Source of the DNA: Natronolimnohabitans sp. A-GB9
GTDB taxonomy: Archaea > Halobacteriota > Halobacteria > Halobacteriales > Natrialbaceae
Direction of reading: 5' to 3'
DNA length: 64,000 nucleotides
NCBI RefSeq assembly: GCF_030848565.1
Contig: NZ_JAVDDV010000005.1
Location: 186,001-250,000 of the forward strand
The notes beneath the pieces are model-generated. The model saw only the letters and a list, made by a program, of their open reading frames with translations. It did no database searches and was not told the DNA's origin. The position numbers and the translations under genes were made by a program. This document shows, piece after piece, positions 9,128 through 24,604 of this stretch (position 1 is the first letter of the stretch; every line of letters starts with the position of its first letter).

Positions 9128-10279
9128 ATGTCTAATGGTGCGTTCGAGGGTTACGGTGGACGACACGTCCCCGACCCGTTACAGGACCCGCTCGAGCAAC
9201 TCGCGACCGCCTACGACGACGTCGCCGACACCGACGCGTTCCAGTCGGAGTTTCGCGACCTACTCGAGGAATTCGCCGGTCGACCGACGCCGCTGTACTA
9301 CGCGCGCAACCTAAGCGACCGCTACGGCGCCGATATCTACCTCAAGCGAGAGGACCTGCTTCACGGCGGCGCACACAAGATCAACAACGCGCTCGGCCAG
9401 GCCCTGTTGGCCAAACAGTCCGGCCGTGACCGACTCATCGCCGAGACCGGCGCCGGACAACACGGCACCGCGACCGCGATGGTCGGTGCCCTGCTCGATC
9501 TCGAGACGGAGATCTATATGGGCCGGAAAGACGTCGAGCGCCAGGAAATGAACGTCTTCCGGATGCGCCTGATGGGCGCCGAGGTCAACGAGGTTACCCG
9601 CGGCGACGAGGGCCTCGCAGATGCCGTCGACGCCGCACTCGAGGATTTCGCCGAAAACGTCGACGACACACATTACCTCGTGGGCAGCGTCGTCGGCCCC
9701 GATCCGTTCCCGCGGATGGTCCGTGACTTCCAGTCGGTCATCGGCGACGAGGCCCGCGAACAGTTCCAGGAACGAACCGGCGACTTACCCGACGCCGCAG
9801 TCGCCTGCGTCGGCGGCGGCTCGAACGCGATCGGGCTCTTTCATGCCTTCCGCGACGACGACGTCGACTTCTACGGCGCCGAAGGCGGCGGCGAGGGCGC
9901 CGGCTCGAAGAAACACGCCGCGCCCCTGGCCAGCGGCAAAGACGACGTCATCCACGGGATGAAAACGCGCGTGATCGACGACGACGTCGAGGTCCACTCC
10001 GTCTCGGCCGGACTGGACTACCCCGGTGTCGGCCCCGAACACGCCATGTACCAGGCGATCGGGCGCTGTGAGTACACCGGGATCACCGACGAGGAAGCGC
10101 TCGCGGCGTTTCGCGAACTGAGCGAGACCGAAGGGATCGTGCCGGCCCTCGAGTCGAGCCACGGCGTCGCGCGAGCGATCCAGCTCGCGGAGGCCGGCGA
10201 ACACGAGACGATCCTCGTGAACCTCTCCGGTCGCGGTGACAAGGATATGGAGACGGCGGTCGCGAAGTTCGACCTCTAG
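9128..10279 (+). CDS. trpB: tryptophan synthase beta subunit
   Basis: 383 aa, TrpB1 type. The PLP lysine is in GGAHKINNALGQ (about residues 80-91), the catalytic glutamate in AETGAGQHG (about 103-111), the phosphate-binding loop is GGGSNAIG (about 228-235), and the C-terminal SGRGDKD motif is intact. It converts indole plus serine to tryptophan. It is not in a trp operon here: no trpA, trpC or trpD is adjacent, so it is either an extra copy or belongs to a dispersed pathway. Its TAG overlaps the stop of the convergent gene in a shared CTAG. Confidence 0.95.
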   Translation: MSNGAFEGYGGRHVPDPLQDPLEQLATAYDDVADTDAFQSEFRDLLEEFAGRPTPLYYARNLSDRYGADIYLKREDLLHGGAHKINNALGQALLAKQSGRDRLIAETGAGQHGTATAMVGALLDLETEIYMGRKDVERQEMNVFRMRLMGAEVNEVTRGDEGLADAVDAALEDFAENVDDTHYLVGSVVGPDPFPRMVRDFQSVIGDEAREQFQERTGDLPDAAVACVGGGSNAIGLFHAFRDDDVDFYGAEGGGEGAGSKKHAAPLASGKDDVIHGMKTRVIDDDVEVHSVSAGLDYPGVGPEHAMYQAIGRCEYTGITDEEALAAFRELSETEGIVPALESSHGVARAIQLAEAGEHETILVNLSGRGDKDMETAVAKFDL

Positions 10280-11004
10280 ACGACGTCGACGACCGGCTCC
10301 TCGTCGATCAATCGGGTCAGCACGACCCGGGGGACGGACCGCCGATCGAGAATCTCCGTCGCTATCTCTCGTGCCGTTTCCTCGAGTTGGGGGGTATCGA
10401 CCATATTGATCAGCGGAACGATGGTCGCGCCATCGGGAACGTCCTTGCACCCGCCCTGTTCGCTCGCCAGGACCGTCGCGACGTCGGTCGTGGAGATCCG
10501 ATCGCCGCGTTCGAGGTCCGTCAGCGCCGCGACACGGTCGGGTCGGTGGACGTGCTCGTCGGTCAGTGGCTCGCCGACGATTTTCGCGCTCGCGATCGGA
10601 ACGACCACGTCGGCCGTCGCTGGAAGTTGCGGTTCCTTCTCGTCCGGTGCCTTGAACCAGCGAGTTCTGGCGCCGTCGGCTTTGACGACCACCGAGACGT
10701 CGTCGTCGAGCGCCGGGACGAACTCGTCGACGACCTCACGATCGTAGCCGAGATATCGGTCCGATCGCTCGCGGGCGGGTACGACGCCGATCGGCCACTC
10801 CGTGGCCGACCGGATCGCCTCGAGCGGTCGTTCGGTGACGGTCACCTCGGCGACCTGGTCTTCGAACGGCGGGATGCGAACGGTTGCCGTCACGACAGCA
10901 CGCTCGAGGCGACCTGCGAGCGCGTACAGCGTCGACTTCTTGCCACCGGCACCGACGACACAGACGACGGCGCCGTCGGCGGCCAGCGCTTCGGGGAGGT
11001 CCAT
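10276..11004 (-). CDS. YqeC-like molybdenum-hydroxylase/selenium cofactor accessory protein
   Basis: 242 aa. The N-terminus has a P-loop-like CVVGAGGKKSTLYALA (about residues 15-30), followed by VTATVRIPP and VVKADGARTRWFKAPDEKEP (about 105-124), which match the YqeC family pattern. YqeC proteins are linked by genome context to maturation of molybdenum hydroxylases or selenium-dependent hydroxylases; the biochemical role is unclear. It shares a CTAG stop overlap with convergent trpB. The MOT1-type permease at 62 kb and the Mo/W oxidoreductases at 17-24 kb are possible functional relatives. Confidence 0.75.
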   Translation of the reverse strand: MDLPEALAADGAVVCVVGAGGKKSTLYALAGRLERAVVTATVRIPPFEDQVAEVTVTERPLEAIRSATEWPIGVVPARERSDRYLGYDREVVDEFVPALDDDVSVVVKADGARTRWFKAPDEKEPQLPATADVVVPIASAKIVGEPLTDEHVHRPDRVAALTDLERGDRISTTDVATVLASEQGGCKDVPDGATIVPLINMVDTPQLEETAREIATEILDRRSVPRVVLTRLIDEEPVVDVV

Positions 11005-16372: not shown

Positions 16373-17029
16373 CTACTCGCCGAACAGCGACGGCGAGTCG
16401 TTGTCCTGCGACGGAGACAGGTCGTAGCCGGGCTGGAGGTCGTTGGGATCGAGACTGAGGAGATACGTGTCGGCCTCGACGGTGCCCTCGATTAGCCAGC
16501 CGACGCCCTCGTAGAAGGGGTGGTCGGCCATCTCCTGGATGTCCGTCGCGAGCTGGGGGAGCCACCAGCCGTGAGCTGCCAGGAACGCTCGGCGGAGTTC
16601 GTCGGCACCGTCGCGGGCCAGTATCTCGAGGGCGGCGAGTTCGACGGCGGCGTGGTCGGCTTCCTCGCGGAGCTGTTCGGAGGGGCGGATGCCGAGGTCG
16701 CGATAGGAGCGTTTGACCGCCGCGAGGGGTTCGCCGAGGTAGTCGTCGGCGTACCACGACTCGTGGATCTGCATCCGTGGGCGTGGCCCGACGAACAGCC
16801 GGGTGTGGACGCGTTTGAGTTCGTCGGCGGCGTCGGACGGGTCGTCGACACCGGATTGCCACGTTTGGAGCAGCCGGTAGCCGTTCGAAAGCGCCTGTGG
16901 CGAGGCCTCTCTGGGGAACTCCTCGGCGACGAGCCGTTCGACTGCCGCCTCGTCCGGTGGGTCCGCGAGCACGCCCGACAGAAAGGCGTACAGATCCGCG
17001 ATCTCGGTGGTCTCGTTCGTTCGTGTCAT
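16373..17029 (-). CDS. TorD/DmsD-family molybdoenzyme maturation chaperone
   Basis: 218 aa, all-helical, with the family's central motif HTRLFVGPRPRMQIHESWY (about residues 75-93), followed by VKRSYRDLGI and EEADHAAVELAALEIL (about 122-137), the E-x2-DH helix that typifies the family. These chaperones bind the Tat signal and help cofactor insertion into the catalytic subunit. Last gene of the fdhA-fdhB-nrfD-torD operon, 75 bp after nrfD. The client is most likely the twin-arginine FdhA. Confidence 0.9.
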   Translation of the reverse strand: MTRTNETTEIADLYAFLSGVLADPPDEAAVERLVAEEFPREASPQALSNGYRLLQTWQSGVDDPSDAADELKRVHTRLFVGPRPRMQIHESWYADDYLGEPLAAVKRSYRDLGIRPSEQLREEADHAAVELAALEILARDGADELRRAFLAAHGWWLPQLATDIQEMADHPFYEGVGWLIEGTVEADTYLLSLDPNDLQPGYDLSPSQDNDSPSLFGE

Positions 17030-17104: not shown

Positions 17105-18196
17105 CTACATCGGGAGCGGGAGCGGCGCGAACTCGGCGGCCATCAGGTACGCCAGCGCGAGCGCGACCTTTCCGACGACCACCAGCGCCGCCGCAGCGAC
17201 GTAGGCCCCCGTAGCCGCGGCCGGCGAGAGCGCGCCACGGCGCTGGCCGACGACAGCCCCGACCGACAGCAGGATCGGCACCACCAGTCCGCCGACGACA
17301 GCGCCGCCGACGAACAGCGTCGCGTGCGTGCTCAGCAGGTTCTCGACGGCCGGTTCGGCGGCCGGAAGCTGCTCGGGCAGCAGCGTGATCGCGGCGAGAA
17401 CCGCCACGAGCGTCGCCACCAGTAGACCGGACGCCGCCAGCGAGTAGTTCTGGATCGTCCGACCGACGGGACGGTTCGCGATCGCTGCGAACCCGACCGC
17501 GACTGTCAGCCCCGCGGCAAGTCCGCCGAGGATCTTCACCGGGAGCAGGAACGTCGGATCCCACAGCGCCACTCGTTCGGTCGGACCGGAGCCGTAGGCC
17601 ATCGCCGAGTAGACCAACACGCCGGCGGCCAAGACGCCGAAGACGGCACCGATCCCGAGTCGAACCGTCTCCGACGGGCGAGTCTTGTCCGCAAGCGTGT
17701 CGAGCAGGTCCAGAAGACCGACCCGGCTGGCAACGCCGCGGATCCCGTTTGCCGTACTATCGCCCGTGGCCGCTCGAGCGGTGCCGTGGTCGGTTCCACC
17801 GTCGGCCGCGACGGCCCGGCGGTGTGGACGCTCCGTACCGAAGGCGGTCCACCCGAACATCAGGAACGCACCCAGGACGAAGCCCGCGATCAGGTACGTG
17901 CCAAGCGCCATCCACGAGCCCAGGTTCGTCATCGTCATCGGCAACATCAGCGCCCGGAACGGCGTCGCGAGGTGGGACAGCAGGACCGGCGGACCGATCG
18001 CCATCCCGAGGATTCCGGCGAGGTAGCCATACTGGGCGACCTGGCCGTGGCTCGGTTCGTTTCGCTTCTGAGAGAGGATATCTGCGATGTACCCCATCAG
18101 ATAGGCGCCACTGGCGATACCGATCATGGCGACGTAGAAGCCGACCTTCCAGCCCCACTCGGTGTACGGTAATTCGAACGTAACTTCGACTGGCAT
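17105..18196 (-). CDS. nrfD: NrfD/PsrC-type quinone-reactive membrane anchor subunit
   Basis: 363 aa with about nine to ten hydrophobic helices; helix 1 region is KVGFYVAMIGIASGAYLMGY (about residues 17-36). The pattern matches NrfD-family subunits that pass electrons between the Fe-S subunit and the (mena)quinone pool. It starts 6 bp after fdhB. Formate dehydrogenase-N normally uses a cytochrome b anchor (FdnI); here an NrfD-type anchor takes that place. An unusually Thr/Gly/Asp-rich loop around residues 125-155 separates two halves. Confidence 0.88.
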   Translation of the reverse strand: MPVEVTFELPYTEWGWKVGFYVAMIGIASGAYLMGYIADILSQKRNEPSHGQVAQYGYLAGILGMAIGPPVLLSHLATPFRALMLPMTMTNLGSWMALGTYLIAGFVLGAFLMFGWTAFGTERPHRRAVAADGGTDHGTARAATGDSTANGIRGVASRVGLLDLLDTLADKTRPSETVRLGIGAVFGVLAAGVLVYSAMAYGSGPTERVALWDPTFLLPVKILGGLAAGLTVAVGFAAIANRPVGRTIQNYSLAASGLLVATLVAVLAAITLLPEQLPAAEPAVENLLSTHATLFVGGAVVGGLVVPILLSVGAVVGQRRGALSPAAATGAYVAAAALVVVGKVALALAYLMAAEFAPLPLPM

Positions 18197-18202
18197 CGGT
18201 GA

Positions 18203-18805
18203 TCAGTCCCCCATGACTTCGTCCGCGTCGTCTCCGAAGACGATTCCGGCCGCCTCCTCGTTGAACGGCGTCGAGACGCCGTCTTCCTGGAGCTTTTCAG
18301 AGAGTTCGTCCGGCGTACCAAACAGCAACGCGTCGGTCGGACACTCCGAAGAGCAAGCCGGCTCGAGACCCTGTTCCTGACGCGGTTCGCAGGTCGTACA
18401 CTTGTCCATCAGGCCGTCGCTCTTGGCGCCCATCGGGCTCGACTCCTCGGCCTCGGGGACCTCCGCGTCGGGGTATTGGGGTGCGCCGAACGGACAGCCG
18501 ACGCCACAGTAGTGACAGCCGATACACTCGTCGGCCGCGACGCGGACGGTTCCGTCGTTACGGAACCGAAGCGCGTTCGTCGGACAGACGTCGATACACG
18601 GGGCTTCCGAGCAGTTGTAACACTGCATCGGTTTGTTCGTCTCGTTTTCGGTCCCGTGCTCGAGTGCGACGACCTGAATGCGGTCGCTTTCCGGCGGGAG
18701 GTCCCAGGTTCGCTGACAGGCGACTTCACAGGCGCCACAGTCGATACAGGACTCCCAGTTCGGGATGACTCGTGCCGTTCCACCGTCGGATTCTTGTGTG
18801 CTCAT
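18203..18805 (-). CDS. fdhB: four-cluster ferredoxin-type electron-transfer subunit
   Basis: 200 aa with sixteen cysteines in DmsB/PsrB order: CIDCGACEVAC (about residues 20-30), CYNCSEAPCIDVC (62-74), CIGCHYCGVGC (94-104), and CTTC...CSSEC (about 136-155). These predict four [4Fe-4S] clusters forming a wire between FdhA and NrfD. No signal peptide, so it would be co-exported with the Tat-bearing FdhA. It starts 24 bp after fdhA. The symbol is by role in this operon. Confidence 0.9.
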   Translation of the reverse strand: MSTQESDGGTARVIPNWESCIDCGACEVACQRTWDLPPESDRIQVVALEHGTENETNKPMQCYNCSEAPCIDVCPTNALRFRNDGTVRVAADECIGCHYCGVGCPFGAPQYPDAEVPEAEESSPMGAKSDGLMDKCTTCEPRQEQGLEPACSSECPTDALLFGTPDELSEKLQEDGVSTPFNEEAAGIVFGDDADEVMGD

Positions 18806-18829: not shown

Positions 18830-21811
18830 CTAGCGTTTGTCTCGCTCCATGCGCTGTTCTTGCCATCGGAGCTGGCGTTCGGACAGTTCGGGGATCTCGT
18901 CGTCGTCGGCGACCCGGACGTTACACAGCGTCGTCTTCGTCTCCTGCATCTGCGTCTCGCGGTCGTATGCCGGGGCCGTCCCGCAGTTGATCGACTCACC
19001 GATCACCAGTGGCTCCATCCCGTCCGGGACGGAGTCCGTGACCTTCTCGCCCTCGAGAATGCCTGCCCAGTGGTACGGGGCGAACGCGTGGTCGGGGGCG
19101 ACTCGCTCCGTGGGTCTGGCCTGGACGAACATCTCGGCGTGGGGCGTCGTCACGGCGATCCAGTCGCCCTCCTCAACGCCGAGTTCGTCAGCCACGTCGG
19201 GGTGGATCTCGAGGTACATCATCGGCGCACGCGAGGCGGTGCCCTGCGTGCTGCGGGTCACCGAGCCGGCGCCTTTGTGCTCGACCTGGCGACCCGAGGT
19301 GAGGACCATCGGATCGACGTCGCCGGCGTCCTCGAGCTCTTCGACGGCGTCGATGTTCTCCTGCTGGACCGCTGCGTTGTCGAGTTCGACGCGCCAGTGG
19401 TCCTCGACGCGGTCGTTACATGGGTAGTCGTCGACGAGGTCCGGCCGCGGCGTGACCGCCGGTTCGCGGTGGACGGGATACTCGTCGGTGAGGTTCCAGG
19501 CGCGCATCCGGGCCCGGCCACGTCCCCACACGGAGTCGGGCTGGGGATTGTCGAACTCTGCGTACTCCTCGGGATCGATGTCGACGTCGTAGTCCCCTTC
19601 GGCCAACTCGAGTGCGGTGTCGTAGACCGACTGGGTCTCGTCTTCTGCATACTCCATCGGGAGCGTCGCGGCGGCTGGGTTCTCGGGGTCTGGAAGGACC
19701 GTCGAGTAGCCGGGGTACTGTGGGACGCCTTCGATCTCGCCGTCCCACCAGTCGGGCTCGTAGGGATCCCGAAGCAGATCCTGGTCGTCCGGCCCCTCGA
19801 CGCCCCAGCGAGCGCGGAAGTCCATCCCGCCCTCGGAGGGATGTTTCGCCGCGTCGTAGAGGATCGGTGTTCCGGGGTGGTCCTCGTGCCAGCACGGCCA
19901 CGGCAGTCCGTAGTACTCGCCGTCCTGGACGCCGTCGACCTCGTCCTCGTCGACGTCGAGGTCGTCGAAATCGACCTGCAGGTCCTCCGCGCTGAAAAGA
20001 TGGGAGTTCTCCTGGTGGGCCTTGAGCCGTTCTGGCGTGTGGCCGACGTAACCAACAGAGCGAACGCCGAGGTTGAACTCGCGAGTGACGTCCTCGACTT
20101 CGTCGTAGTCGAAGTGGTCGCCGAAGCCGAGTCGATCGGCGAACTCACACAGCAGCTTCCAGTCTTTCTTGGCGTCGTGTCGGGGCTCGATGGCCTGCGA
20201 GCGCCACTGGATCTGTCGGCCGGTGTTGACGACGCTACCGGATTCCTCGAGGTTGGTTCCGACCGGCAGCATGTAGACGTCGGTGTCGCTCTCGGCGAGT
20301 TCGGCGACCTGATTCGGGAAGACGTCGATGTTGACGATGAAGTCGAGCTCGTTGACCGCTTCGCGGACCTTCCCGTACTCGGTGAGCGAGGCGAGCCCGT
20401 GGCCCCAGAAGATCGCCGCGCGGAGGGGATCGGGCTGGTAGATCTCCCAGTCGTCGTCTAGTACGCCTTCGTACCAGCGGGCGACGGTGAAGCCGTTTTT
20501 CTCCATCAGGTCGGTCGAGTGGAACCGATCGACCAGTTCGTCGTAGCTGATCTCGCCGGAGGTACTGTTCGTCTCCGACCAGACGTTCGCCCAGTGCTCC
20601 CAGGCGCCGGGATCGAGGCCGTAGTAGCCCGGCAGGGTACTCGAGTCGACGCCGAGGTCGGTCGCCCCCTGGACGTTGTCGTGACCGCGGAAGATCGGCG
20701 TTCCGCCGCCGGGCTGGGCGGCGTGGCCGAGCGTCAGGTTCAACATCGCGTACGCCCGGACGTTGCCGGTCGCGTTGTTGTGCTGGGTGCCACCCATCGC
20801 CCACTCGACGCAGCTGACGTCTGCGTCGGCCAGCTCTTCGGCGAGTTCCATCAGCTCTTCCTCCTCGATCCCACAGATGTCCGAGACGGTCTCGAGGTCG
20901 TACTCGTGGAGGATCTCCTCGCGGAACTCCTGCCAGTCGACCACGCGGCTCTCGATGAACTCCTCGTCGTGGGCCTCGAGGTTTTCAACGATGTGGTAGA
21001 TGAGGCCGTAGATGAACGCGACGTCGGTGCCCGAGCGGAACTGGTAGTAGTCGTCGGCAGCAGCCGCGGTCTTGGTGTACCGTGGCTCGGCGACGATGTG
21101 TTTGCCGCCGTTTTGCTGGGCCTCCTGGAAGTACTGCCACGCGACTGGGTGGCTCTCGAGGGGGTTGTGCCCGATGATGAGGTTGACGTCGACGTTGCGC
21201 ATGTCGTTTGAGTTGTTCGTCATCGCGCCGACGCCCCACGTGTTCGCGATGCCCTCGACGGTCGTCGAGTGGCAGATCCGCGCCTGGTGGTCGATGTTGT
21301 TCGTCCCGTAGAACGCAGCCAGCTTGCGGATCAGGTAGGCGGCCTCGTTGCTGTGTTTCGCGGAGCCGGCCCAGAACGTCGCGTGAGGACCGGTCTCTTC
21401 GCGGATGTCGTCGAGGCGGCCGGCGATCTCGTCTAGAATCTCGTCCCAGTCCATCGCCTCCCACTCGCCGTCGACGAGTTTCAGCGGCCGTTTGAGCCGC
21501 TGCTCGGAGTTGACCGATTGGGTCAGCGATGCGCCTTTCGAACAGAGTCCGCCCTGGTTGACCGGGTTGTCTTCCCAGGGCTCCTGTCCGACGACCGCGT
21601 CCTCTTCGACACCGACCTGCAGTCCACAGCCGACCGAGCAATGTGTACAGACCGTTTTGACTAGTTCGTCGCCTGCCTCCGGCGATACGGTATCGCTGTC
21701 GTCACCACCTCGTTCGAGTAACGTTCGTCCGCCGACCGCTGCCGCGAGCGATCCGGCAGCACCGGCTTTGAGGAATCCTCGCCGGTCGAGGTCGATCGTC
21801 GACTTTGACAT
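18830..21811 (-). CDS. fdhA: molybdopterin formate dehydrogenase catalytic subunit (Cys type, Tat-exported)
   Basis: 993 aa. Tat signal DRRGFLKAGAAGSLAAAV (about residues 9-26). A [4Fe-4S] motif is formed by Cys55, Cys58, Cys62 and Cys90. The active-site segment QARICHSTTVEG has Cys180-His181 where E. coli FdnG has selenocysteine-His, and continues GVGAMTNNSNDMRN, very close to FdnG. This strongly favours formate dehydrogenase over DMSO or polysulfide reductases. It should oxidise formate to CO2 outside the cytoplasmic membrane and feed electrons to quinone via FdhB and NrfD. It binds Mo or W bis-MGD. A divergent AOR homologue starts 232 bp away. Confidence 0.88.
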   Translation of the reverse strand: MSKSTIDLDRRGFLKAGAAGSLAAAVGGRTLLERGGDDSDTVSPEAGDELVKTVCTHCSVGCGLQVGVEEDAVVGQEPWEDNPVNQGGLCSKGASLTQSVNSEQRLKRPLKLVDGEWEAMDWDEILDEIAGRLDDIREETGPHATFWAGSAKHSNEAAYLIRKLAAFYGTNNIDHQARICHSTTVEGIANTWGVGAMTNNSNDMRNVDVNLIIGHNPLESHPVAWQYFQEAQQNGGKHIVAEPRYTKTAAAADDYYQFRSGTDVAFIYGLIYHIVENLEAHDEEFIESRVVDWQEFREEILHEYDLETVSDICGIEEEELMELAEELADADVSCVEWAMGGTQHNNATGNVRAYAMLNLTLGHAAQPGGGTPIFRGHDNVQGATDLGVDSSTLPGYYGLDPGAWEHWANVWSETNSTSGEISYDELVDRFHSTDLMEKNGFTVARWYEGVLDDDWEIYQPDPLRAAIFWGHGLASLTEYGKVREAVNELDFIVNIDVFPNQVAELAESDTDVYMLPVGTNLEESGSVVNTGRQIQWRSQAIEPRHDAKKDWKLLCEFADRLGFGDHFDYDEVEDVTREFNLGVRSVGYVGHTPERLKAHQENSHLFSAEDLQVDFDDLDVDEDEVDGVQDGEYYGLPWPCWHEDHPGTPILYDAAKHPSEGGMDFRARWGVEGPDDQDLLRDPYEPDWWDGEIEGVPQYPGYSTVLPDPENPAAATLPMEYAEDETQSVYDTALELAEGDYDVDIDPEEYAEFDNPQPDSVWGRGRARMRAWNLTDEYPVHREPAVTPRPDLVDDYPCNDRVEDHWRVELDNAAVQQENIDAVEELEDAGDVDPMVLTSGRQVEHKGAGSVTRSTQGTASRAPMMYLEIHPDVADELGVEEGDWIAVTTPHAEMFVQARPTERVAPDHAFAPYHWAGILEGEKVTDSVPDGMEPLVIGESINCGTAPAYDRETQMQETKTTLCNVRVADDDEIPELSERQLRWQEQRMERDKR

Positions 21812-21836
21812 TGTTCGCCTGAATTGGCTTGTCGAT

Positions 21837-21847
21837 CATAAATATAC
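21837..21847 (-). promoter_or_regulatory. TATA box for the fdh operon
   Basis: Leftward-reading GTATATTTATG centred about 30 bp before the fdhA ATG, consistent with a leaderless or nearly leaderless transcript. Confidence 0.5.
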
Positions 21848-21974
21848 CGAAGAATGAGGGGAATCTTTGTGAGTATACCGCACATTCACTCGTCTTGCTA
21901 ACGATAGGACTCGGCATTCGGATTTATGATACCTGGCGCGTATCGCATAATGTGGTTGTTTTCGACGTTCACGT

Positions 21975-21988
21975 TTCGAATATTCGAA
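21975..21988. promoter_or_regulatory. 14-bp perfect palindrome in the fdh/aor divergent promoter
   Basis: TTCGAATATTCGAA is perfectly self-complementary and AT-rich in a GC-rich genome. It lies about 24-37 bp upstream of the AOR TATA box (22012-22018) and about 130 bp upstream of the fdh TATA box. Candidate operator for a dimeric regulator controlling one or both divergent transcripts. Confidence 0.45.
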
Positions 21989-22011
21989 CATATCGCTTCT
22001 CCCACCGTGAC

Positions 22012-22018
22012 TTTTAAT
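22012..22018 (+). promoter_or_regulatory. TATA box for the AOR-like gene
   Basis: TTTTAAT centred about 29 bp before the ATG at 22044, predicting a leaderless transcript. Confidence 0.5.
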
Positions 22019-22043
22019 CCTCCGACACCGCGAATATCCCGTC

Positions 22044-23846
22044 ATGGACAGGATGCTGCGGGTCGATCTCTCCGCAGGGAGCGTGACGAGCGAGGAGATC
22101 CCCGCACGGTGGCTCGAGAAGTACGTCGGGGGAAAAGGTGTCGGCGCTCGCTACCTCTACGAGGAACTCGAGCCCGGCACGGACGCACACGCTCCGGAGA
22201 ACGTCCTGTTGTTCATGCTGGGGCCGCTGACGGGGTATACGCCCGGTGAGCAGCGGTACGCAGCGATCACGAAGTCCCCGCTGACGGGGGCGTTTCTGGA
22301 CTCCTACAGCGGCGGCACGTTCCCCGAACGCCTGGCCGGGTCGCTCGACGGTCACATGGGCGTTCTCGTCACCGGCGAGGCCGACGACCCCGTCGTCCTC
22401 TCGGTCGACGACGGCGAGGCGACACTCGAGTCGGCCGACGACCTGTGGGGTCTCGACGCCGAGGCGACCTGCGAGCGGTTCCCCGACGCCGCGGTCGCCT
22501 GCGTCGGCCCAGCCGGGGAAAACGGCGTACAGTACGCGACGATCGCCTCCGACGGTGGCGACCACCACGCCGGCCGGGGCGGGGCCGGCACCGTAATGGG
22601 ATCGAAGAACCTGAAGGCGATCGTCGCACACGGCACTGCGCCGGAGGGACTCTCGGATCTGCGGGAGCGATACGGCGAGGCGTTTGCCGAGAGCGAGGCC
22701 GGTCGGTGGCTCGCGGCCAGCGACACCTTGGAGACGGTCGACTTCGCAAACGAGGTCGGCGTCCTCCCGACACGGGGCTGGCAGGAGAGCAGTTTCGAGG
22801 GCGTCGACGAGATCGGTATCGAACGGGTTCGTGAGGCAGCGACCGGCCGAGAGCGACCCGACGATCACGTCCCAGGCGGGTTTCGCGTCGACAGCGACGA
22901 GGGTGAAAGCGTTCCCCGCGGCGCCACACCGATCGTCCTCGGAGCCGGACTCGGCATCGACGACTTCGACGCCGTCGCGATGCTCGGGGCGATCTGCGAT
23001 CGGCTCGCGATGGACGTGATTACGGCCGGGAACGCGGTCGCGTGGGCAGTGCGGGCGAGTCAGGAAGGGCTGATCGATCGCGATCTCTCCTTTGGCGACG
23101 AGACCGCCGCACGAGAACTCATCGAGGAGATCGCCGATCGCTCGACGCCGCTTGGCGACGCGCTCGCGGACGGCGTCGACCGGGCCGCCGAGCAGTACGG
23201 CGGCGAGGACCTCATTCCGACCGTGAAAGGGATGGAACTTTCCTCGTACGATCCGCGAAATGCCGAAACGATGGCCCTCGCCTACGCCACGAGCGACCGC
23301 GGGGGCTGTCACCGCCGCGCCCGGCCGGTCGAACTCGAGCCAGTCACTAGCATGGACCGCAGCCGGGAGGCCCGGGTCACCGCCGTCGTCGAGGAACAGA
23401 ACCGGCGGGCGCTGTTGTGGAGTCTGATCGCGGACGACTTCCTAGAGGAGGTGTTGGAAGCAGGCCACGCCGCCGAGTGGTTGTCGGCCGTCGGCTACGA
23501 CCACGACCCCGAGTCGCTGTCGCGGGTCGGCGAACGGATCTGGACGCTGGTTCGGCTGTTCAACGTCCGAGAGGGGTTCTCCCGGATCGACGACGAACTC
23601 CCACCGCCGTTGACCGACCCGCTCGAGGACGCGACCGACTCGAGCGACGGAACCGGCGGCGACGGTATCGAACAGGAAGCGTTCGACGCGCTTCTCGAGG
23701 CATACTACGCGGCCAGAGACTGGGACCGACGTGGACGGCCGACCGCCGACCTCCTCCAGCGACTGGACCTGACGACCGTCCCCGACGAGTCGACGCCGGT
23801 CCCGTCGACGGCCGATGACGATCGAACAACGGACACTCGAAGATGA
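22044..23846 (+). CDS. aldehyde ferredoxin oxidoreductase family protein lacking the Fe-S ligands
   Basis: 600 aa, normal AOR length. Family landmarks are intact: GPLTGYTPGEQRYAAITKSP (about residues 60-79), AGRGGAGTVMGSKNLKAI (about 186-203), GLGIDDFDAV and YATSDRGGCHRRA. The CxxCxxxC motif that should lie near residues 275-285 is replaced by DDHVPGGFRV, and the later cluster cysteine region reads SLIADDFLEE. The whole protein has only four scattered Cys (143, 153, 318, 422). The first pterin loop is DRLAMDV rather than DxxGLD. It may bind tungsto- or molybdopterin without a cluster, or be non-enzymatic. It overlaps the next gene by ATGA. Confidence 0.85.
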   Translation: MDRMLRVDLSAGSVTSEEIPARWLEKYVGGKGVGARYLYEELEPGTDAHAPENVLLFMLGPLTGYTPGEQRYAAITKSPLTGAFLDSYSGGTFPERLAGSLDGHMGVLVTGEADDPVVLSVDDGEATLESADDLWGLDAEATCERFPDAAVACVGPAGENGVQYATIASDGGDHHAGRGGAGTVMGSKNLKAIVAHGTAPEGLSDLRERYGEAFAESEAGRWLAASDTLETVDFANEVGVLPTRGWQESSFEGVDEIGIERVREAATGRERPDDHVPGGFRVDSDEGESVPRGATPIVLGAGLGIDDFDAVAMLGAICDRLAMDVITAGNAVAWAVRASQEGLIDRDLSFGDETAARELIEEIADRSTPLGDALADGVDRAAEQYGGEDLIPTVKGMELSSYDPRNAETMALAYATSDRGGCHRRARPVELEPVTSMDRSREARVTAVVEEQNRRALLWSLIADDFLEEVLEAGHAAEWLSAVGYDHDPESLSRVGERIWTLVRLFNVREGFSRIDDELPPPLTDPLEDATDSSDGTGGDGIEQEAFDALLEAYYAARDWDRRGRPTADLLQRLDLTTVPDESTPVPSTADDDRTTDTRR

Positions 23847-24604
23847 CTGATAGTATCGATCTCGACGAGATGGACGTCGGCGACGACGACGAACAGGCGG
23901 ACGATGCGAACCACGGCGACTGGCTCTGGCGCGGTGAGGGCGATCCGGACGACGAGCCAGGGCCCCAGTGGAGCAGTGCGTCGTCGACGACCCGAAACGA
24001 GGACGAATCGACCGACTCGAGCGAACCGACGGCTGACACGAACGCAGACCCGACGGCCGAGACCGACGACGCGGAGTCGGCAACGCGACCGGCGACGCCG
24101 AAAGTGCCGGGCGATCCCACGGGTCCCGTCGGTGTCCCCGAAGAGAAAGGCGGCTCCGGCGGTGGATCGCCGTCCCAACAGGAGGGCCACGCCTCGAGTG
24201 ACGCTTCCGCTCGGACCACCGACCACGGCGAGAGCACGGAGCCCGACGACATGACGCTGGCACTGACCTACGAGGCGATCAACCGGCTCGCGGATCCACA
24301 GTTCGTGATCGCCGACGCCCGCGGCTGGGCCGACTGGATCGGCATCGTCGGCACCGTCTCCACGCCGGCGATCCGGAAGTTCCAGCGCGACGAGGGGATC
24401 GATCTCGACTTCTTCGGCGGCTCCGAAACCGGACCGGCCCAGCGGCTGGCCGACGTCACGCCGGAGTCGATGTTCTACGCCGATCGGATGGTCCTGGTCG
24501 GCGTCTCGGACGACGAGGAGATCGCCGAGGCCGCCGACTGGGAGTTCGTTCCCCTCGAGACGGCCGCCGAAAAGGCCGGCTGGGAGATCGAGTTCGCGGA
24601 GTAG
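23843..24604 (+). CDS. conserved haloarchaeal protein, disordered N-half plus globular C-half
   Basis: 253 aa. Residues 1-135 are acidic and low-complexity (Asp/Glu/Ser/Thr/Gly). Residues about 136-253 form a compact domain starting MTLALTYEAINRLADPQFVI, with RGWADWIGIVGTV and several Trp. No motif I can assign. The start overlaps the AOR-like stop by 4 bp (ATGA), so the two are co-translated and probably work together, perhaps as a scaffold or partner subunit; that is inference from context only. Confidence 0.75.
   Translation: MTDSIDLDEMDVGDDDEQADDANHGDWLWRGEGDPDDEPGPQWSSASSTTRNEDESTDSSEPTADTNADPTAETDDAESATRPATPKVPGDPTGPVGVPEEKGGSGGGSPSQQEGHASSDASARTTDHGESTEPDDMTLALTYEAINRLADPQFVIADARGWADWIGIVGTVSTPAIRKFQRDEGIDLDFFGGSETGPAQRLADVTPESMFYADRMVLVGVSDDEEIAEAADWEFVPLETAAEKAGWEIEFAE

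Follow-up and report, generated by a model that had tools for sequence, protein, structure and literature searches.

To our knowledge, all characterised enzymes of the AOR family pass electrons through a [4Fe-4S] cluster. A 2026 classification of tungsten oxidoreductases reported that the ligands of the cluster and of the pterin vary very little, defined class I by the cluster, and counted Glu313, Thr243, Tyr427 and His448 among the highly conserved residues (PMC13328260). The counterpart of Glu313 in the Aromatoleum enzyme, Glu331, is the proposed catalytic acid/base (PMC10413684). The activity of formate dehydrogenases (FDHs) depends on a sulfido ligand, which is essential (PMC12140954). FdhD, which binds sulfurated bis-MGD, takes part in maturing each of the three FDHs of E. 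coli (PMC6239281); in Methylorubrum, FDH cannot do without it (PMC13197769). YqeC is described as accessory to the selenium-dependent molybdenum hydroxylases (PMC2276186), and growth on formate, with several FDHs, has been described for Halodesulfurarchaeum (PMC5437934).

The window analysed here, 64,000 nucleotides from Natronolimnohabitans sp. A-GB9, encodes an AOR-like protein in an intact open frame (Table 1). Its two Pfam matches lie far above the gathering scores and together cover the full length (AFOR_N, residues 3-198, E 4e-65; AFOR_C, residues 208-576, E 7e-93); AFOR domains were the only ones that Pfam found in it, with no PF02634 (FdhD) and no DNA-binding or other effector domain. 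Solved AORs align with it from end to end (phmmer). Structure prediction had been suggested as a check by the first-pass annotation of this DNA, and the AlphaFold2 model (pLDDT 90, pTM 0.92) retained the AOR fold, with TM-scores for the predicted structure of 0.90 and 0.89 to P. furiosus FOR and AOR (1B25 and 1AOR). Sequence and fold place the protein in the AOR family. A working AOR is defined by its cluster and its catalytic glutamate, and the protein, judged by its sequence, has neither.

Table 1. Features of the window, with positions counted from its first nucleotide
Feature	Position	Strand	Remarks
YqeC, cofactor maturation protein	10276..11004	-	TIGR03172, 170 bits; 11 kb from the AOR-like gene
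TorD/DmsD-like molybdoenzyme chaperone	16373..17029	-	
NrfD-like membrane subunit	17105..18196	-	weak match, TIGR03148, E 8e-5
FdhB-like 4Fe-4S ferredoxin subunit	18203..18805	-	
FdhA, Tat-exported formate dehydrogenase catalytic subunit	18830..21811	-	HQARICHST active-site Cys; TIGR01591 462 bits, under the equivalog cut-off
Intergenic, 232 bases between the divergent fdhA and AOR-like genes	21812..22043	.	possible shared promoter region, inferred
Cluster-less AOR-family protein, P0001, 600 aa	22044..23846	+	intact open frame
Residues 269-282 RERPDDHVPGGFRV	22848..22889	+	replaces the CxxCxxxC cluster loop (alignment)
Residues 292-294 RGA	22917..22925	+	replace Glu311-Tyr312-Glu313; catalytic Glu lost
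Residues 319-324 DRLAMD	22998..23015	+	first DxxGLD pterin motif, largely kept; D343 equivalent in 124/124
Residues 419-428 RGGCHRRARP	23298..23327	+	H423 is the His448 equivalent, kept in 124/124; R424 clade-specific
Residues 455-469 RALLWSLIADDFLEE	23406..23450	+	second pterin/cluster motif lost (alignment)
DUF7124 protein, 253 aa, no cysteine	23843..24604	+	ATGA overlap with the AOR-like stop

The first-pass annotation had reported that the CxxCxxxC motif and the later ligand cysteine were gone and that only four cysteines remained, and our alignments bear this out. Residues 269-282 lie at the position of the P. furiosus AOR loop, and in the segment SLIADDFLEE (residues 460-469) Asp464 stands in the place of Cys494. 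The cysteines left in the whole protein are residues 143, 153, 318 and 422. Of these, C318 and C422 correspond to P. furiosus C337 and C447, which are cysteines in cluster-bearing homologues too and are not known cluster ligands.

To place these changes in the family, we aligned 124 members of the clade to which the protein belongs with 28 cluster-bearing AORs, some rows of this joint alignment being one gene from two collections. Fifty columns were invariant, defined as at least 93% among the cluster-bearing AORs. The clade lost exactly seven of them (C288, C291, C295, C494, E311, E313 and T344 in P. furiosus numbering) and kept the other 43, including T243, D343 and H448. All six functional positions fell among the seven losses, an outcome with a chance of about 4e-7 under random column loss. 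The cluster ligands (CxxCxxxC and C494) were replaced by gaps or residues other than cysteine in 124/124 clade sequences, the catalytic E313 was likewise gone from all 124, and E311 had become arginine in 122 of them.

That the family's motifs were kept, as had also been claimed, holds for the first pterin motif, where the loop reads D319-RLAM-D324 as described; the disappearance of the catalytic Glu313 and of Asp489 had been overlooked. One pterin motif of the clade (D338-D343) is kept and the other (D489-C494) is lost, with D489 changed to tryptophan and C494 to aspartate in every one of the 124 sequences. The cluster-bearing sister clade has Tyr or Phe at the position of D489 and is also without the aspartate there. 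Because half of the second motif is gone, binding of two pterins by the AOR-like protein is uncertain. R76 (119/124), G95 (124/124) and Y427 (123/124) are kept, and new residues have become fixed that are specific to the clade, including R269 and E270 in the former cluster loop (123/124), R292, G293, R424, W459 and D464. Read directly, this pattern points to a removal of redox function that left the family fold, and the cofactor pocket for the most part, in place. In five genomes (G130, G131, G154, G252 and G281) the clade gene matched in two pieces within one open frame, with the break near model positions 270-294, apparently a long insertion at the old cysteine loop.

We then asked how widely the cluster-less form occurs. 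The source genome has five AOR genes, and the other four all encode CxxCxxxC. The motif was missing from all 46 Natrialbaceae orthologues (~56-84% identity), and the next-closest homologues (39-47% identity) retain it. A scan of named genomes found 80 clade loci in Natrialbaceae, Haloferacaceae, Haloarculaceae, Haladaptataceae, Halobacteriaceae and other families, with orthologues in Haloferax gibbonsii, Haloferax massiliensis and Haloarcula japonica, and the protein was present in 133 of 242 Halobacteria genomes, set off by a clear score gap (6 of the 133 had split or partial matches and were assigned by score density). Among 197 genomes of the phylum outside Halobacteria we found no cluster-less form; the best score was 413 bits, versus at least 757 for intact clade genes. 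In a maximum-likelihood tree the cluster-less clade was monophyletic (100/100) and sister to a cluster-bearing clade (100/99), so that a single loss is the simplest history. The conserved cluster-less subfamily that the first-pass annotation proposed to look for therefore exists, Halobacteria-wide, but the same downstream gene, also expected there, accompanies it at only 28 of the 80 loci. In the literature searched, which comprised open-licence papers only, we found no description of such a clade; it represents an AOR-family variant with, possibly, a new role.

Another AOR locus of the source genome (L156:7902-12134) carries a cluster-bearing AOR gene 162 bases upstream of a second FdhA gene, in the same direction; this pair would fit an oxidation of formaldehyde to formate to CO2.

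The strongest clue to function is the genomic context of FDH, YqeC and MobA genes, which went unnoticed in the earlier analysis. In the window, the AOR-like gene and a Tat-type FDH operon (fdhA, fdhB, nrfD-like, torD-like) are divergently oriented. An adjacent 4Fe-4S small subunit (WorS), which marks the operons of the multi-subunit WORs (classes II-IV), is absent here: the FdhB ferredoxin gene sits in the divergent operon and not with the AOR-like gene, and the sole co-directional partner encodes the cysteine-free DUF7124 protein. Across the clade, FdhA, YqeC or MobA was encoded within 10 kb at 68 of 80 loci, compared with 3 of 32 cluster-bearing AOR loci (Fisher p 4e-14, which overstates independence because the genomes are phylogenetically related). 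The remaining 12 clade loci, some of them on short contigs, showed none of the three.

The FdhA-bearing clade loci fall into four FDH architectures, Tat-exported and cytoplasmic types among them, plus one unclassified locus. One of the 80 loci resembles the window; FdhA is accompanied by an HdrA-like protein and TorD at 24, by a NuoF-like subunit at 14, and by an uncharacterised 199-aa protein at 11. No redox partner gene was found to be constant across these four contexts. SAMP1 occurs among the neighbours at some clade loci. Other neighbours at some loci we take, by sequence recognition, to be FTHFS, FolD, MetF, EtfAB, a dimethylglycine-dehydrogenase-like protein and MoaA; two loci (L202 and L148) presumably combine a cluster-less AOR with FolD, MetF, FTHFS and the dimethylglycine-dehydrogenase-like protein, with EtfAB also in L148. 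The MoaD/SAMP1 neighbours (L106, L112, L133) were left out as evidence, since MoaD-family genes adjoin archaeal AOR genes in general (PMC2948915). At two further loci, L176 (G037) and L177 (G116), an AOR of another, cluster-bearing kind (CLGCPLEC or CHGCPLEC) lies beside Tat-type FdhA, FdhB, TorD and an HdrA-like protein.

The link to FDH raises the question of how Halobacteria mature formate dehydrogenases without FdhD. FdhD (PF02634) was detected in 0 of 242 Halobacteria genomes, of which 172 by our tally, or 174 as counted by the search tool, had FdhA above the TIGR01591 cut-off and 169 had YqeC. In the FdhA-positive genomes elsewhere in the phylum, FdhD was present in 61/61 and YqeC, above its cut-off, in none. 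All 133 genomes with the cluster-less AOR encode YqeC, and 126 of them FdhA above the cut-off; G125 and G129, for example, encode YqeC as well as FdhA in addition to the cluster-less AOR, but no FdhD. YqeC was found in 159 of the 172 FdhA-positive Halobacteria, making it a strong candidate for FDH maturation in this class, beyond the link already known with selenium-dependent molybdenum hydroxylases. The cluster-less AOR was absent from 46 of the 172, and is therefore not required for every FDH. Since 33 of those 46 genomes have YqeC, replacement of FdhD by the AOR-like protein alone is not supported. YqeC tracks FDH more closely than the AOR-like protein does and, taken alone, makes the better candidate for a substitute of FdhD.

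The DUF7124 protein follows a different pattern. It was encoded at 25/25 loci with Tat-type FDH (the first two architectures above) versus 0/26 of the others, and thus tracks Tat-type FDH rather than the AOR-like protein; this strict tie suggests that it is probably an FDH accessory protein. Where it adjoins the AOR-like gene it usually overlaps the AOR stop by four bases, so for these loci the coupling is real. Its model has a disordered N-terminus and an alpha/beta C-terminal domain, and no significant fold match was found for it, redox proteins included.

An altered form of the protein is thus conserved beside FDH and cofactor genes, so that the cluster-less protein is probably no longer an aldehyde oxidiser itself and probably helps FDH. 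We tentatively favour a redox-dead accessory factor for FDH maturation that binds a pterin cofactor; from its sequence and context we infer both the cofactor binding and the role in maturation or delivery. In one event in Halobacteria, the [4Fe-4S] ligands and the catalytic glutamate would have been lost from a protein whose fold and, for the most part, metallopterin pocket were retained, and the redox-disabled AOR would have been recruited by metal-dependent formate dehydrogenases. It may bind a W/Mo-pterin cofactor, either bis-MPT or MobA's guanylylated product, and, with YqeC, may hold, protect or pass on this cofactor during FDH maturation. The AOR-like protein would then take over some of the work done in other organisms by FdhD, a proposal prompted by the presence of FDHs in Halobacteria with no detectable FdhD. 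The four FDH architectures fit such a shared factor, as FdhD likewise serves all three E. coli FDHs (PMC6239281). Our commitment stops at tentative because 46 FdhA-positive genomes do without the protein and the substrate-side residues are kept (T243, Y427 and H448, for which a pure carrier has no obvious use). The fuller statement, that in Halobacteria an AOR fold became a cofactor-handling protein which matures FDHs with YqeC and MobA in FdhD's place, is one we advance with more reserve still.

Those same conserved residues, together with most of the cofactor contacts, are what one would expect if the protein were still a W/Mo enzyme in the formate/one-carbon pathway that FDH serves, working by non-redox chemistry (hydration, lyase-type or transfer reactions of a one-carbon compound) or by redox chemistry with electrons leaving through contact with a partner. 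We regard this main rival as rather unlikely, though by no means fanciful. Benzoyl-CoA reductase offers a precedent for non-aldehyde chemistry in the AOR family (PMC13328260). The complete loss of Glu313, the proposed proton acceptor, and the arginine at Glu311 in 122 sequences tell against it, as does the lack of a redox partner gene constant across the four FDH contexts. One-carbon genes that we take to be FTHFS, FolD, MetF, dimethylglycine-dehydrogenase-like and EtfAB, not all of them named by profile, lie beside some loci and would suit such an enzyme; one-carbon enzymes would leave the recurrent MobA and YqeC neighbours unexplained. A structural or regulatory pseudoenzyme, which would either form part of the FDH complex or stabilise it, or else control FDH by sensing formate, aldehyde or the status of the W/Mo cofactor, would account for the tight genomic link, the divergent fdhA of the window and a fold and pocket conserved with the redox parts gone. 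It seems improbable to us, since a fixed structural contact is hard to reconcile with four FDH architectures, Tat-exported and cytoplasmic, and no DNA-binding or effector domain is attached.

The first-pass annotation had offered three outcomes for a cluster-less AOR: electrons could take another route, the protein could depend on its co-translated partner, or its role could lie outside redox chemistry. The last is best supported, because the catalytic glutamate vanished with the four cysteines across the clade; another electron route is possible. Dependence on DUF7124 is weakened, and a two-component enzyme in which that protein supplies the missing electron path now appears very unlikely. 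The ATGA overlap in the window, and at most loci with an adjacent DUF7124 gene, would suit it; the window protein contains no cysteine and has no significant match to a redox-protein fold, and DUF7124 occurs at 28/80 loci, with Tat-type FDH wherever an FdhA lies within reach, and at 0/26 with the cytoplasmic type of FdhA. The annotation had further allowed that a sequencing error or shifted cysteines might hide the motif. This fails against the absence of CxxCxxxC from all 46 Natrialbaceae orthologues and the loss of the same positions in 124/124 sequences, while the four paralogues and the sister clade keep the motif. Missing ancestral catalytic residues could also mark a decaying pseudogene, but losses fixed in 124/124 clade sequences across the class, the open frame and a dN/dS of 0.17-0.21 between the window gene and its orthologues rule out decay, and leave artefact or pseudogene with a negligible likelihood. 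Redox chemistry was removed selectively, in a gene that is under purifying selection.

A whole clade in which fold and most of the pocket persist without cluster or catalytic glutamate suggests that the scaffold is usable without redox chemistry. Comparison with described systems sets out what is shared. The AOR-like protein has the full-length fold (AFOR_N plus AFOR_C) of P. furiosus AOR and FOR (class I WOR), with equivalents of Arg76, Gly95, Thr243, Asp338/Asp343, Tyr427 and His448. Unlike them, it lacks the [4Fe-4S] ligands, Glu313 and Asp489, has arginine at 311, and has genes for FDH, YqeC and MobA as neighbours. The cluster-bearing Natrialbaceae sister clade (L052-L059), 39-47% identical, shares with it Tyr93, His182, His183, Cys447, Arg450 and an aromatic residue at 489, but keeps CxxCxxxC, C494, E311 and E313; no FDH, YqeC or MobA genes were found near sister-clade AORs in the control loci (L169-L175, L193, L194). 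BamB, the benzoyl-CoA reductase of the family, resembles the model with a TM-score of 0.80 and acts in a multi-subunit redox complex, whereas nothing comparable is encoded beside the AOR-like gene. YqeC (TIGR03172), encoded by all genomes that have the cluster-less protein and often near it, is not homologous to it and is a possible partner. If our favoured maturation role is true, a metallopterin enzyme would have become a carrier for the type of cofactor on which its own family relies. The proposed functional analogue is then FdhD/FdsC (PF02634), the FDH sulfurtransferase-chaperone, which is unrelated in sequence to the AOR-like protein, serves several FDH types and binds the pterin cofactor (PMC6239281).
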